Shown: in pieces, positions 4,331 to 40,390 of the stretch
Layout: every line of letters starts with the position of its first letter
Position numbering within the stretch: position 1 is the stretch's first letter
From: Hymenobacter jejuensis
GTDB lineage: Bacteria; Bacteroidota; Bacteroidia; Cytophagales; Hymenobacteraceae
NCBI RefSeq assembly: GCF_006337165.1
Contig: NZ_CP040896.1
Span: 2,480,001-2,544,000 of the forward strand
Direction of reading: 5' to 3'
DNA: 64,000 bases
Notes under the pieces: generated by a model
What the model was told of the DNA's origin: nothing
Databases searched by the model: none
What the model saw: the letters and a program-made list of their open reading frames with translations, nothing else
Program-made: the position numbers and the translations under genes

Positions 4331-4351
4331 AAACAAACTAGAAACTAAAGG

Positions 4352-4392
4352 CTAGTTCCCCTCCTCAGCTGAGGAGGGGCTAGGGGTGGTTG
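4352..4392 (+). repeat. Palindromic repeat family 1, locus A left arm
   Basis: This 41-bp unit begins ctagttcccc, contains a perfect 22-bp palindrome at 4358-4379 (core CCTCCTCAGCTGAGGAGG) and ends ctaggggtggttg. The same unit occurs inverted at 4823-4863 with one mismatch, so the pair brackets the DUF559 gene. Other copies lie at 27998-28134 and 33382-33511, and a degraded one at 40243-40390. Confidence 0.95.
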
Positions 4393-4429
4393 GCAATCGT
4401 TGTTTAGTATATAGTTAAAACTACCAAAG

Positions 4430-4804
4430 GTGGCAGATCAAGTACACAACCTAATTTACCAAAAGTCCATCCGCCGCACGTTGCGCAACCACCTCACCCC
4501 CGCCGAAGCTTTACTGTGGCGGGCGCTGCAACGCAGCCAGCTAGGTGGGCGCAAGTTTAGGCGTCAGCACGGCATTGGGGCTTACGTCGTAGATTTTTAC
4601 TGCCCCGCTGAAAAATTGGTAATTGAGTTGGATGGCGCCGGACACTTCACAACTAGCGGCGAAGCTACTGACGTGGTGCGCACAGAGTACCTGGCTAGGC
4701 TAGGACTGCGGGTAATGCGTTTTGAAAATAAACTGGTGCTCAAGCAACTTGACAGTGTATTAGCGGCTATTGAGGCCGCCTTTCTGCCGGAAAGCGGCTC
4801 CTGA
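4430..4804 (+). CDS. DUF559 domain protein, PD-(D/E)XK endonuclease-like
   Basis: A 124-residue protein from GTG. It matches the DUF559 pattern throughout: LRNHLTPAEALLWRAL, then RKFRRQHGIG, VVDFYC and LVIELDG, ending MRFENKLVLKQLDSVLAAI. D55 and E66 in the DFYC...IELDG pair correspond to the metal-binding acids of the Vsr/MutH-like nuclease fold to which the family is assigned. Its substrate is not established. It is enclosed by inverted copies of a palindrome-bearing 41-bp repeat, and the sequence similarity between the two flanks runs a further ~15 bp inward (aatcgttg against its complement). The surrounding genes are unrelated, which suggests that gene plus repeats moved as one unit. Confidence 0.88.
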   Translation: MADQVHNLIYQKSIRRTLRNHLTPAEALLWRALQRSQLGGRKFRRQHGIGAYVVDFYCPAEKLVIELDGAGHFTTSGEATDVVRTEYLARLGLRVMRFENKLVLKQLDSVLAAIEAAFLPESGS

Positions 4805-4822
4805 CCTTTGGCCAACGATTAT

Positions 4823-4863
4823 CAACCACCCCTAACCCCTCCTCAGCTGAGGAGGGGAACTAG
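4823..4863 (-). repeat. Palindromic repeat family 1, locus A right arm
   Basis: Inverted copy of the 41-bp unit at 4352-4392, with a single difference (t for c after the palindrome). The 22-bp palindrome core is identical. Together the arms could form a long hairpin in single-stranded DNA with the DUF559 gene in the loop. Confidence 0.95.
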
Positions 4864-4932
4864 CTCTTAGCTCTAGTTCTAGCCTTGGTTTTAACGCCAA
4901 ATTTTGGAGATACCAGCCTAGGCTTTCTTGCC

Positions 4933-6475: not shown

Positions 6476-6868
6476 ATGACCAAACAGGAACACGTTGCTT
6501 ATTGGAAGGAAACTGCTGAACAGGATTGGTCATCGGCTCAGGTACTATTCGGGGCAGGCAACTATTTGAACAGTTTGTTTCTGGCGCATTTGGTTATTGA
6601 GAAACTCAGCAAAGCGCTGTGGGTACAAGAGAATACGGATGACTACCCGCCTCGTATTCATAATATCATTCGCCTGCTGGCGGCCACCAGCTATGCACTC
6701 AACCCAGCCGAAACGGTGCTCGTAGCTGAACTGAACCAGTTCCAAATGGAAGGTCGTTATCCCGACTATTCACGTACGGTTTACCAGCAGGCTACGGCTA
6801 GTCATACTCAGAATGTGTTGCGCGACACTGCTTCCTTACGCCAATGTTTACTCAACAAGCTGCTTTAG
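6476..6868 (+). CDS. HEPN domain protein, toxin-like partner
   Basis: The 130-residue, largely alpha-helical protein begins TKQEHVAYWKETAEQDWSSA and has the HEPN hallmarks: an N-terminal helix with W..A..DW.SA, a central FLAHLVIEKLSKALW helix, and YPPRIHNIIRLL in the place where family members carry P..H.L. HEPN proteins paired with nucleotidyltransferases act as RNases or as substrates of the partner (type VII toxin-antitoxin, HepT-MntA). Here the classic RX4-6H motif is not clearly present, so catalytic RNase activity is uncertain. It overlaps the MNT gene by 25 bp, as in such operons. The region is less GC-rich than lpdA. A near-match -7 box (TACTTTCG, 6464-6471) ends just 4 bp before the ATG. 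Confidence 0.82.
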   Translation: MTKQEHVAYWKETAEQDWSSAQVLFGAGNYLNSLFLAHLVIEKLSKALWVQENTDDYPPRIHNIIRLLAATSYALNPAETVLVAELNQFQMEGRYPDYSRTVYQQATASHTQNVLRDTASLRQCLLNKLL

Positions 6869-7161
6869 AACAGGTCCGGGCTTTCGCAGAAGAATTGCGC
6901 AAGCTCGATGTGCCGTTGCGACAAGTAATTCTTTTCGGCTCGTATGCCCGCAATGAGCAACGGGAAGAGTCGGATATTGATGTAGCGCTGGTCGCCGACG
7001 ATTTTACGGGAGCAGGGTTTCTTGATGTTCGACGTTTTGCCAGCGTACTGGCCCGCTACCCCTATTTCTACATCGAGCCGCACACGTTTACTACCGAACA
7101 GTTTACCGACTGGAACCCCTTGGTAAAAGAAATCAAGCGCACTGGAATTCTAGCGGCGTAA
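6844..7161 (+). CDS. MNT-type minimal nucleotidyltransferase, antitoxin-like
   Basis: A 105-residue protein with the polymerase-beta-fold signature [16 protein letters not shown] at 32-47, supplying G32-S33 and the metal-binding D44 and D46. In the HepT-MntA type of system this enzyme adds AMP units to the HEPN toxin and thereby neutralises it; that role here is inferred from family and pairing. The usual third acidic residue lies on a later strand and may be E in YFYIEPHTF. Its start overlaps the HEPN gene by 25 bp in another frame. Its TAA stop (7159-7161) lies inside the first bases of the duplicated lpdA end, showing where the insertion joint falls. Confidence 0.85.
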
Positions 7162-7351: not shown

Positions 7352-8962
7352 CTAAAAATAGCTCGAGCTTTGAAATTTGAATAAATCAAACAAATCTTCA
7401 ATGTTAGAATTATTGTCTTCCACTATTTGTGAAGATGGGAGCATATGCTGTTTTGATTTTGATTTAGACAAAACCCTTCTAGAATGGTAGAATGAAATAT
7501 TGTTTTGTTTTAACAAACTGAAAAAAGGGTGTTTTTCAATGATTTTCGGGTCTTTCGGGGTTATCCATTTATGGAATATAGCCTCATATACCAGTAGCCA
7601 ATACTCATTGTCTAAAGAATCCTCCTCAAATAGGTCTTGTAAATTACCAATTTTTGTATTTGATGCTATTAAGCCTTGTTTTCTTAAATCCAAAGCCATT
7701 ATTAAGCAGCATGGATCAACAAGTTCAAATAGATTAGATGCTGTCTTGGCAGGGATTTTTATATTAAATACTTTGGCTAGCCATAATGCCCAAGTTATTT
7801 CAAATGAATGGCCCTTGTATATATGTTCATCTAACAGGGTATATACTATATCCTTGATTTTGCTCTTGTCAACAATTGTCCTGTTATGGTACATTAAGAA
7901 AGAGAATTCCTGTAGAGTTGCAGGCTCCGTAATAACTGTCTTCATTAATAATGATTCAAAAAAAGACCAATTACCTGCTTCTATCTCTAAACTATCTAAA
8001 ATTTTCATGGAATATTTTAAGACACTGTCTGATGGGAATTCTATAGAATACTTGAATGAAATATCGAAAAATCTGATTATATCATAAAGCTGCTTTTTTT
8101 GGTCTTTTGAAAATTTGTAGTTCGCAAGTACATATGACCAGCCATTATCAAAAAAATGAGGAGAACGTGTTATCGATGTTTTATCATCATTCATGTCAAG
8201 GTTAAGAGAGGTAAATATTTCTTGTAGAGTCCTTATAGACTTCTCTGCTTTTTCAATGGACGAAAAGAAAAAATTAAAATCATCTACATATCTATATCCT
8301 ACAAAGTCGCTGGTTTTCTTTGAAAACTCGGTGTCTATCCAGCAGCCGATTAGCTCTGAAACTATTAATGAAGTATCAGGTCCAACTGGAATACCTATTG
8401 TTTGTCCAGATTGACATTTTCTGAGTAATTTATCAATATTATTCCCTAGTAAAGTGCTGTCATTCCTTCTGGCTTTAGCGACAGGCTTTGTATGTAATAC
8501 CCATGGAATAATATGTGTGTATATAGTGTTATAATACTTTGATATGTCGGTTTTGATCTCATAGATTTTAGAATATGAATCTAAGGTCCCCGATCTTCTG
8601 AAATCCCCGTATGTTAGTCTTGTTTTAATACTGCGATTGCCCTTTGGTGTGAATATGGGCAAACTTGCTGATGTTTTTGAAGAAAAGGATTTTTTTATTT
8701 CTGTATAATTATCGACAATGCATTTTGTAAGGAGCCATTGACTGAGTGGATTTGGTATGCTAATTCTTCTTCTGCTTAATCCTACTTTTGGTATATTATA
8801 GAATACACATTTTGTTTCACTGTGCTTATCTTGAGTCTTTTTATTTATTAAATTCCATTTTTCCTCTACGAAAGGTAGTTTGTTTGCAAAAGTAGAAGTG
8901 GTAAATACTGGTGGTAATTCTCTGGCAAAATACCCGCTTGAAAGAAATTTCTTTAATTCCAT
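7352..8962 (-). CDS. Abi/DRT-like reverse transcriptase (RNA-directed DNA polymerase)
   Basis: A 536-residue protein with a reverse-transcriptase fold in its first ~280 residues. RT motif 3 is TDISKYYNTIYTH at 138-150 (D139 catalytic), motif 4 is GIPVGPDTS near 190-198, and motif 5 is YRYVDDFNFF with D227 and D228. The IYTH..PW context resembles abortive-infection and 'unknown group' RTs used in phage defence (AbiA/AbiK, DRT) rather than retrons or group II introns. The C-terminal ~250 residues are helix-rich and unrecognised. No maturase, endonuclease or retron msr/msd structure was seen. The gene is strikingly AT-rich, with TTT/AAA/ATT-type codons, unlike its neighbours, a clear sign of transfer. 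It probably acts alone or with an RNA; the exact DRT type cannot be told by eye. Confidence 0.85.
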   Translation of the reverse strand: MELKKFLSSGYFARELPPVFTTSTFANKLPFVEEKWNLINKKTQDKHSETKCVFYNIPKVGLSRRRISIPNPLSQWLLTKCIVDNYTEIKKSFSSKTSASLPIFTPKGNRSIKTRLTYGDFRRSGTLDSYSKIYEIKTDISKYYNTIYTHIIPWVLHTKPVAKARRNDSTLLGNNIDKLLRKCQSGQTIGIPVGPDTSLIVSELIGCWIDTEFSKKTSDFVGYRYVDDFNFFFSSIEKAEKSIRTLQEIFTSLNLDMNDDKTSITRSPHFFDNGWSYVLANYKFSKDQKKQLYDIIRFFDISFKYSIEFPSDSVLKYSMKILDSLEIEAGNWSFFESLLMKTVITEPATLQEFSFLMYHNRTIVDKSKIKDIVYTLLDEHIYKGHSFEITWALWLAKVFNIKIPAKTASNLFELVDPCCLIMALDLRKQGLIASNTKIGNLQDLFEEDSLDNEYWLLVYEAIFHKWITPKDPKIIEKHPFFSLLKQNNISFYHSRRVLSKSKSKQHMLPSSQIVEDNNSNIEDLFDLFKFQSSSYF

Positions 8963-27988: not shown

Positions 27989-27997
27989 GAGCTAAGG

Positions 27998-28134
27998 CTA
28001 GTTCCCCTCCTCAGCTGAGGAGGGGCTAGGGGTGGTTGAAACACTAGCGCTAAAAACTAAAACTAGATACGTTCTGACGGGCATCAACCACCCCGCCCTT
28101 CGGGCACCCCTCCTCAGCTGAGGAGGGGAACTAG
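27998..28134. repeat. Palindromic repeat family 1, locus B (inverted pair)
   Basis: Left arm 27998-28038 is identical to 4352-4392. Right arm 28085-28134 is inverted and carries a small extra hairpin (GCCCTTCGGGC) where other copies have taa. Only ~46 bp separate the arms and no gene lies between. It fills the gap between uraH and the DUF6986-like gene. Confidence 0.95.
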
Positions 28135-33347: not shown

Positions 33348-33381
33348 TAATCAACATTTTAATATTTTTATAAGCTACAAG

Positions 33382-33511
33382 CTAGTTCCCCTCCTCAACT
33401 GAGGAGGGGCTAGGGGTGGTTGAAAGATTAGAGTTAGAAGCTAGAACTACTAATTGTCTGGGTGCTCCGACCAATCACCCCTAACCCCTCCTCAGCTGAG
33501 GAGGGGAACTA
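33382..33511. repeat. Palindromic repeat family 1, locus C (inverted pair)
   Basis: Left arm 33382-33422 differs from the locus A arm by one base in the palindrome centre (caactg). The right arm 33472-33511 is inverted with a few end changes. About 49 bp separate them, without a gene. It lies between the convergent stops of uox and xdhC. Confidence 0.95.
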
Positions 33512-33532
33512 ACCTTAGCTCTAGTTTGGGTC

Positions 33533-40242: not shown

Positions 40243-40390
40243 GAGCTCCCCTCCTTTTTTCAAGGAGGGGTGGCCGGAGGCCGGGGTGGTCAGCTAGAAT
40301 TAGAAGACTAAATGCCAGTCTTTGTTCAACGGGTTTTACCACCCCCAACCCACGCCGCTTGATGCGCAGAATTTAAAAAAGGAGGGAAGC
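40243..40390. repeat. Palindromic repeat family 1, degraded locus D
   Basis: 40243-40290 reads gagctcccctccttttttca, aggaggggtggccgg, aggccggggtggtca; 40338-40390 reads accacccccaacccac ... aaaaaaggagggaagcttag. Both ends echo the family 1 arms (ctcccctcc, aggagggg, ggggtggt) but the palindrome centre is replaced by a poly-T tract. It fills most of the 302-bp gap between the aldehyde dehydrogenase and the oxidase. Confidence 0.7.

Follow-up and report, generated by a model that had tools for sequence, protein, structure and literature searches.

Bacterial genomes commonly contain palindromic repeats of the REP type, for which the HUH-type RAYT has been described as the dedicated enzyme. One large group, the CGTC REPs (Di Nocera 2013), carries a CGTC tag, a stem of 8–9 bp and a CCA tail, and a dedicated transposase is apparently absent for it (PMC3733652). 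A RAYT-REPIN system has a single nuclease gene between palindromic units, dispersed inverted doublets that can fold as one hairpin, a repeat type matched to the enzyme clade, and repeats that may occur without the gene (PMC8049555, PMC3733652, PMC6006769 and PMC8266576). Here we describe a locus of Hymenobacter jejuensis, located within an analyzed stretch of 64,000 nucleotides (the window), which resembles the RAYT-REPIN systems in each of these features. It differs from them in the enzyme, which is of the DUF559 PD-(D/E)XK type whereas that of RAYTs is of the HUH/Y1 type (PF01797), and the RAYT-like genes of Hymenobacter are found with other arms. By analogy, the best reading is that the DUF559 cassette works like a RAYT-REPIN system without being a member of it. 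Our literature search found no work linking DUF559 to such palindromic repeats and, judged by titles and the openings of abstracts, none on palindromic repeats of this kind in Hymenobacter; many subscription papers and preprints lay outside the search, and a prior description is possible.

The DUF559 gene occupies positions 4430–4804 of the forward strand, encodes 124 residues from a GTG start, and matches the Pfam family DUF559 (PF04480) with E = 3.7e-32 and 110.9 bits, against a curated cut-off of 20.6. It is the sole gene between two inverted arms and the only DUF559 match in the window genome; its Pfam matches comprise DUF559 and the nuclease family MTES_1575 and no others, with no DDE transposase among them. 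The extended arms of 58 nt, at 4345–4402 (forward) and 4813–4870 (reverse), are 91% complementary with a spacing of 410 nt. Their inner 42 nt, the core units at 4351–4392 and, as reverse complement, 4823–4864, differ only by a C/T beside the hairpin. Each core consists of GCTAGTT-CCCCTCCTCAGCTGAGGAGGGG-(C/T)TAGGGGTGGTTG, the left one reading GCTAGTT, the palindrome and CTAGGGGTGGTTG, and in both the tail faces the DUF559 gene. The original prediction had described 41-bp inverted units with one mismatch, each bearing a perfect 22-bp palindrome and followed by further similarity inward. These units are correct as 4352–4392 and 4823–4863, the perfect palindrome CCCCTCCTCAGCTGAGGAGGGG is present at 4358–4379 and its right-hand counterpart at 4836–4857, and the inward similarity was confirmed. 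Just outside the type-A units, i.e., the type of the window (4335–4350 and 4865–4890), the DNA consists of CTAG/AGCT-rich, nearly repetitive tracts, which perhaps arose through insertion or reflect a preferred target.

On one side, the DUF559 gene neighbors an M1-peptidase gene and, on the other side, a pyridine-nucleotide oxidoreductase gene, which we take to be lpd. The region upstream of lpd in 29 other loci, the best matches from 61 genomes searched, contained no DUF559, with a doublet in two of them and single arms in four. The M1 peptidase is still located upstream of lpd in only 11 of these 29 loci, and none of the 11 has DUF559, indicating that the window gene was added between two housekeeping genes. 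The loci differ too much in this region to allow a base-exact empty site to be recognized for the window element. Six of the loci (L200, L202, L206, L207, L209, and L223) carry other inverted repeats upstream of lpd, TCATGCTGAGC..GAAGCATCTCGC-like and GTCATTGCGAGG-like, which do not resemble the window arms and may belong to a different repeat family.

We modeled the window DUF559 protein with AlphaFold2 (pLDDT 87.6, pTM 0.82). A Foldseek search with the model returned the DUF559 structure 3hrl at E = 4.5e-8 as the sole match below 0.001, followed by the catalytic domain of I-Bth0305I (3r3p) at E = 2e-3, while Vsr (1vsr) ranked 11th with E = 0.044. Residues D55, E66, H72, and D81, presumably the catalytic residues, are invariant among 42 sequences. 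In PMC9403480, a DUF559 gene of Thermosynechococcus is placed in the EDxHD family, and the EDxHD name and the link of DUF559 to Vsr appear in PMC9403480 and PMC12907096. The window protein is thus predicted, on its modeled fold, to be a Vsr/EDxHD-type PD-(D/E)XK nuclease, for which we infer nuclease activity.

The arm unit is not confined to the element. In the window, the palindrome CCCCTCCTCAGCTGAGGAGGGG had six matches at up to three mismatches, against a mean of 0.00 in 100 dinucleotide shuffles, and the search of the complete 5.09-Mb genome called for by the original prediction located it, at up to two mismatches, at 31 dispersed places, with none for the reversed-pattern control. A looser search around these places revealed eight gene-less doublets of the arm unit, 90–103 nt apart; seven were scored as inverted by script and the one with palindromes starting at 28004 and 28107, which has an extra mini-hairpin, by eye. 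The remaining places hold either a single unit or a variant bearing a second hairpin. Two of the REPIN-like inverted doublets reside in the window: one at 27997–28134, with palindromes at 28004–28025 and 28107–28128 and the mini-hairpin GCCCTTCGGGC in its right unit, folds into one long hairpin, and the other, at 33381–33512, has palindromes at 33388–33409 (one mismatch) and 33485–33506. A related hairpin CCCCTCCTTTTTTCAAGGAGGGG with different adjoining sequence, at 40248–40270, is a possible relic or variant unit. Folded as single-stranded DNA, three doublets each gave one long hairpin of −45 to −53 kcal/mol (z of −11 to −13), and three of the eight aligned with each other at 0.86–0.90 of the full score. 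One doublet contains CAACGATTATCA, which is also found in the inner flank of the element that bears the gene, and with the shared arms this makes the doublets look like gene-less derivatives of the cassette. Their anatomy matches the one given for REPINs in PMC8049555. The doublets also recall MITEs in sharing arms, and once the subterminal CAACGATTATCA, with a gene-bearing element; unlike an autonomous transposon, however, this element has no DDE transposase, and the enzyme proposed for it is a nuclease of another superfamily.

To see how general this arrangement is, we turned to 120 Hymenobacter genomes, 103 of which have DUF559 matches, up to six per genome, and 17 none. Among the best 150 matches, 141 loci were analyzed and 127 were testable, i.e., with an open frame of up to 700 residues and both flanks present, leaving 14 that were not. 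Arms or hairpins of the same stem are found on both sides in 120 of these 127 loci. The proportion is 85/91 for frames of up to 250 residues and 35/36 for those of 251–700, and it is 30/30 for proteins with at least 55% identity to the window protein and 90/97 for the others; we split by identity since subsets by clade A or B, being defined by arm type, would be circular. The same test was positive in one of 215 control intervals of the tested loci and in none of 29 lpd genes, and RAYT-like genes, as the positive control with wider flanks of 700 nt, had inverted arms in 16 of 20 cases. A stricter test, confined to hairpins, retained 89 of the 127 DUF559 loci against 0 of 236 controls. Arms were absent from the flanks of all nine testable loci with DUF559 in frames longer than 700 residues, some of which contain arms internally.

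Outside the genus, paired arms were found at 11 of 17 loci in a best-match sample of the phylum and at 35 of 65 non-Hymenobacter loci among the named loci, which are the best 80 of 555 relatives. CCCCTCC-type hairpins on both sides of DUF559 also occur in Betaproteobacteria, Acidobacteria, and Phycisphaerae. In a further family (f7, probably Flavobacteriaceae), paired hairpins flank 13 of 42 loci, 11/22 in the nearer subfamily and 2/20 in the distant ones, against 0/59 controls. The expectation that DUF559 always lies within inverted repeats therefore held for 120 of 127 loci within the genus and failed for the distant f7 subfamilies.

Arm types differ between DUF559 groups. Besides type A, as in the window, we distinguish A2, which combines the first hairpin of A with a second hairpin, and B, with CCTCACCCCCCGGCCCCCTCTCC..GGAGAGGGGGAGCC and subtypes, whose polarity is mostly reversed with the tails outward. 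Each of the 30 loci with an identity of at least 55% has A or A2 arms on at least one side, three of them (L065, L084, and L086) have B1 arms in addition, and no A arms occur below 55%. With 134 of the 141 loci assigned a type, and those having both A and B arms scored as A, the arm type changes seven times on the DUF559 tree, for which the possible minimum is 4 and the shuffled mean 54.3, and 0 of 200 shuffles were as low; the tree itself (FastTree, 126 columns) has many weak forks.

The pairing extends to repeats counted across whole genomes with half-unit patterns, in co-occurrence tests that ignore relatedness and use thresholds and groups chosen by the analyst. Of the 29 genomes with an A1 gene (at least 64% identity), 28 contain three or more type-A matches, compared with 22 of the 91 genomes that lack one (p = 1e-12); the remaining A1 genome, G029, carries A2 arms beside its DUF559 gene and was afterwards reassigned to A2. 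Likewise, at least two A2 matches occur in 23/28 genomes with an A2 gene against 19/92 without (p = 6e-9), and at least three B1 matches in 82/95 genomes with a clade-B gene against 12/25 without (p = 1e-4). Three cross pairs of repeat type and DUF559 group gave p = 0.26, 0.44, and 0.82 over the 120 genomes. The original prediction asked whether repeat number tracks DUF559 and held that repeats abundant in its absence would speak against a role of the gene. The tracking stands for each of the three types with its own group, whereas the adverse observation was made in part: 8 of the 17 DUF559-free genomes are rich in repeats, two with at least 20 type-A matches (G026 and G110) and six others with at least 12 type-B1 matches (G038, G057, G060, G085, G103, and G116). 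Among the 22 genomes that have type-A matches and lack an A1 gene, G040 reaches 43. Repeats in DUF559-free genomes fit gene loss that left the repeats behind as well as another mobilizing enzyme; REPINs, too, occur in E. coli genomes without a RAYT, in smaller number (PMC8049555).

The second hairpin of A2 varies in stem sequence and yet stays paired, with at least 68 distinct cores. Among the matches listed, the second stems have a Watson-Crick fraction of 0.86, whereas reassigned arms give 0.49 on average and 0.56 at most. Examples of A2 repeats are found in G007 and G067 and at G000:C1:1161533-1161570. The variable paired stem is perhaps kept by quasi-palindrome correction or by recognition of structure, and arms of constant structure and changing sequence would provide a natural experiment in structure recognition.

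We also compared the arms with CGTC REPs. A CGTC/TGTC-stem-loop-stem-CCA motif occurs 20 times in 54 kb beside DUF559 (14 of the 80 named loci) against twice in 314 kb farther off, in a set that includes the loci where the motif was first seen. In the 42 f7 loci, the only independent test, it occurs 10 times in 29 kb (5 loci) against once in 112 kb. The resemblance of this motif to the published CGTC REPs may serve as a lead. In 400-kb samples of G450 and G471, CGTC units were no more numerous than the reversed-tag controls (1 vs. 3 and 2 vs. 4), giving no sign of dispersal, and the DUF559 locus of G450 has no CGTC unit. The window arms were rejected as CGTC REPs, the tag being absent with GCTAGTT and CTAGGGGTGG in its place, and the CGTC tag was not borne out as a rule for type-B arms, as the tag-hairpin-CCA motif is found mainly beside DUF559 of Flavobacteriaceae-like records.

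Evidence of mobility comes from clade B, in which several cassettes share one open frame with conserved genes. By motif, the cassette follows the PurL/FGAM-synthase-like glutaminase part at 21 loci (L018 etc.; Pfam GATase_5 for L059) and MetH at 3 loci (L050, L052, and L083; Met_synt_B12 for L050), and precedes RecQ at 7 loci (L113 etc.; Pfam for L113). It resides inside a UvrD-type helicase gene at L066, L069, L073, L074, L078, L090, and L166 (Pfam for L066). The predicted proteins include arm-encoded linkers, such as GPHPPAPSP and SPLSTGEGGRGGE, which could mislead annotation. Rickettsia palindromic elements and CGTC REPs are likewise palindromic repeats, some of which lie within the reading frames of protein genes, repair genes among them (PMC10969869).

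Of the 120 genomes, 117 contain the helicase host gene, and we examined 35, comprising the 30 best matches and five added for having DUF559 there. The insert is present in two of the 30 and, with the five added loci, in seven, always in one loop; the frame runs through in five and is broken in two (G061 and G092). That seven genomes have arm-gene-arm in one helicase loop while relatives lack it implies that the arms bound a mobile unit. Between G109, with the insert, and G030, with the empty site and 97% identity over the query, DNA similarity breaks at the outer arm ends: it extends as far as ...GTGCAACGGGG, in front of ACCTCACCCCCCGGCC, and starts again behind ...GGGGGGTGAGGCC. The helicase span comprises 348 residues in G109 against 147 in G030, i.e., 201 codons more with the frame kept. 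The empty site of G030 is not a clean junction, as it holds a variable linker about 28 nt long and different in sequence, and no target-site duplication was noticed in this one alignment. Arm, gene, and arm thus appear, by comparison of the two genomes, to have been inserted as one unit into a conserved gene, for a clade-B relative rather than for the window element. Empty orthologous sites, which the original prediction had asked for, exist accordingly for the clade-B helicase cassette, and no base-exact one was found for the window element.

The insert state changes five times on the host-gene tree and twice on the DUF559 tree, a pattern as repeated homing would give; 35 of 500 shuffles on the host tree clustered as tightly, with five of the seven insert genomes having been chosen for the insert. 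The distribution could mean that a single DUF559 lineage inserted several times at the same site, or that the insert was lost several times, for example through many losses after one old insertion. It resembles the homing of I-Bth0305I, an EDxHD/Vsr-like free-standing homing endonuclease and the nearest solved fold after 3hrl: in several lineages the clade-B cassette occupies the same position within a conserved gene, and it is present or absent among close relatives. Unlike for I-Bth0305I-type enzymes, no intron or intein is seen here, and the palindromic arms enclosing the gene also occur dispersed without it.

Several other explanations of the repeats were weighed. It is unlikely, in our estimation, that another enzyme, a RAYT/Y1 transposase or other, moves the arms and doublets with DUF559 as captured cargo. 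Such an enzyme would account for the repeats persisting in genomes without a matching DUF559, and Y1_Tnp (PF01797) matches do occur in 83 of the 120 Hymenobacter genomes. However, the transposase search, which covered the Y1_Tnp family, gave no match at E ≤ 1e-3 in the whole repeat-rich window genome, nor any in G024 with its 67 type-A matches, and a RAYT was therefore rejected as the enzyme of the repeats in the window genome. The CCCCTCC hairpin, moreover, was found in the best arm of none of 20 RAYT-like loci, taken as the weaker Y1_Tnp matches as opposed to the stronger, IS200-type ones; RAYT-like and DUF559 loci hence carry separate repeats, and a RAYT was rejected as the gene between CCCCTCC-type arms. 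Cargo status would also leave the group-specific pairing of DUF559 and repeats unexplained, including the genome-wide counts. At L227–L243, the RAYT-like Hymenobacter genes are accompanied by a different set of long inverted arms, CTGGCGGCAGTCT-like and others, which represent a separate REPIN-like population.

Somewhat less probable still is a host maintenance nuclease, acting in Vsr-like repair or hairpin trimming beside its preferred substrate, which would limit or edit palindromes and not spread them. The predicted fold is indeed related to Vsr, and in PMC12907096, the Caulobacter VsrA, a DUF559-domain protein treated as a repair nuclease, causes an SOS response in cells lacking a cytosine methyltransferase, so that other roles of DUF559 exist. 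Nevertheless, an arm-gene-arm unit in a conserved gene of seven genomes, absent from near relatives, is mobile behavior, and up to six DUF559 matches per genome would be unusual for a housekeeping repair gene. The neighborhood raises the question of defense: a reverse transcriptase gene at 7352–8962 on the reverse strand (PADLOC Drt4/Drt6 models, E = 4.6e-171; NCBIfam Drt4 below cut-off) and, beside it, a HEPN/nucleotidyltransferase pair at 6476–6868 and 6844–7161 on the forward strand likely constitute a small defense cluster that begins about 1.6 kb from the element. We nonetheless consider it very improbable that DUF559 is an anti-phage nuclease of a defense island with the repeats incidental. 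The DRT-like reverse transcriptase and the pair lie 1.7–4.2 kb away, but DUF559 is missing from all 11 other loci with the M1 peptidase upstream of lpd, its PADLOC match is weak (DpdF, E = 1.8e-5, 59 of 1078 positions), and the arms would be left unexplained. Finally, many units are intergenic and the palindrome makes a stable hairpin, as would be expected if G+C-rich hairpins, such as terminators or insulators, were so common between genes that any gene seems flanked. Chance or composition of this kind has next to no probability and was rejected for the genus by the controls (1/215 intervals, 0/29 lpd, 0/236, and 0/59); the same stem also recurs on both sides, and arms are found inside coding frames as well.

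The original interpretation is thus supported in part. Its core, a gene-repeat system analogous to RAYT-REPIN but built on another enzyme, has good comparative support from the packaging, the group-specific repeats, the repeats in a genome without Y1_Tnp, and the insert/empty site. Packaging, arm dispersal, and group-specific pairing emerge from comparison across genomes, and it is our best inference that copying or mobility is driven by DUF559 and not by some other enzyme. The window element is probably a compact mobile cassette, made of a palindromic arm, one DUF559 gene, and an inverted palindromic arm, which works as a REPtron-like system. In such a cassette, the DUF559 nuclease would recognize its arm's hairpin, whether single-stranded or extruded, plus the flanking tail, and would then nick or cut at the arm hairpin or at a target. 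Host recombination or repair would copy arm-gene-arm or arm-arm into a new site, in a partly homing-endonuclease-like manner. The gene-less doublets would be non-autonomous REPIN/MITE-like derivatives of the cassette, with each DUF559 group serving its own hairpin and tail. A wider proposal, which we regard as possible and rather doubtful, is that DUF559/EDxHD nucleases constitute a distinct cross-phylum class of mobile elements that would read their own hairpin and tail, spread cassettes and doublets, home in frame, and serve enzyme-less palindrome families, including CGTC REPs.

If the DUF559 nuclease indeed mobilizes these repeats, a second, unrelated nuclease family would have its own palindromes, and this lifestyle would have arisen more than once. 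A "domain of unknown function" that is widespread would acquire a function, and the mover of RAYT-less repeats would become testable with matched and mismatched pairs of nuclease and hairpin.
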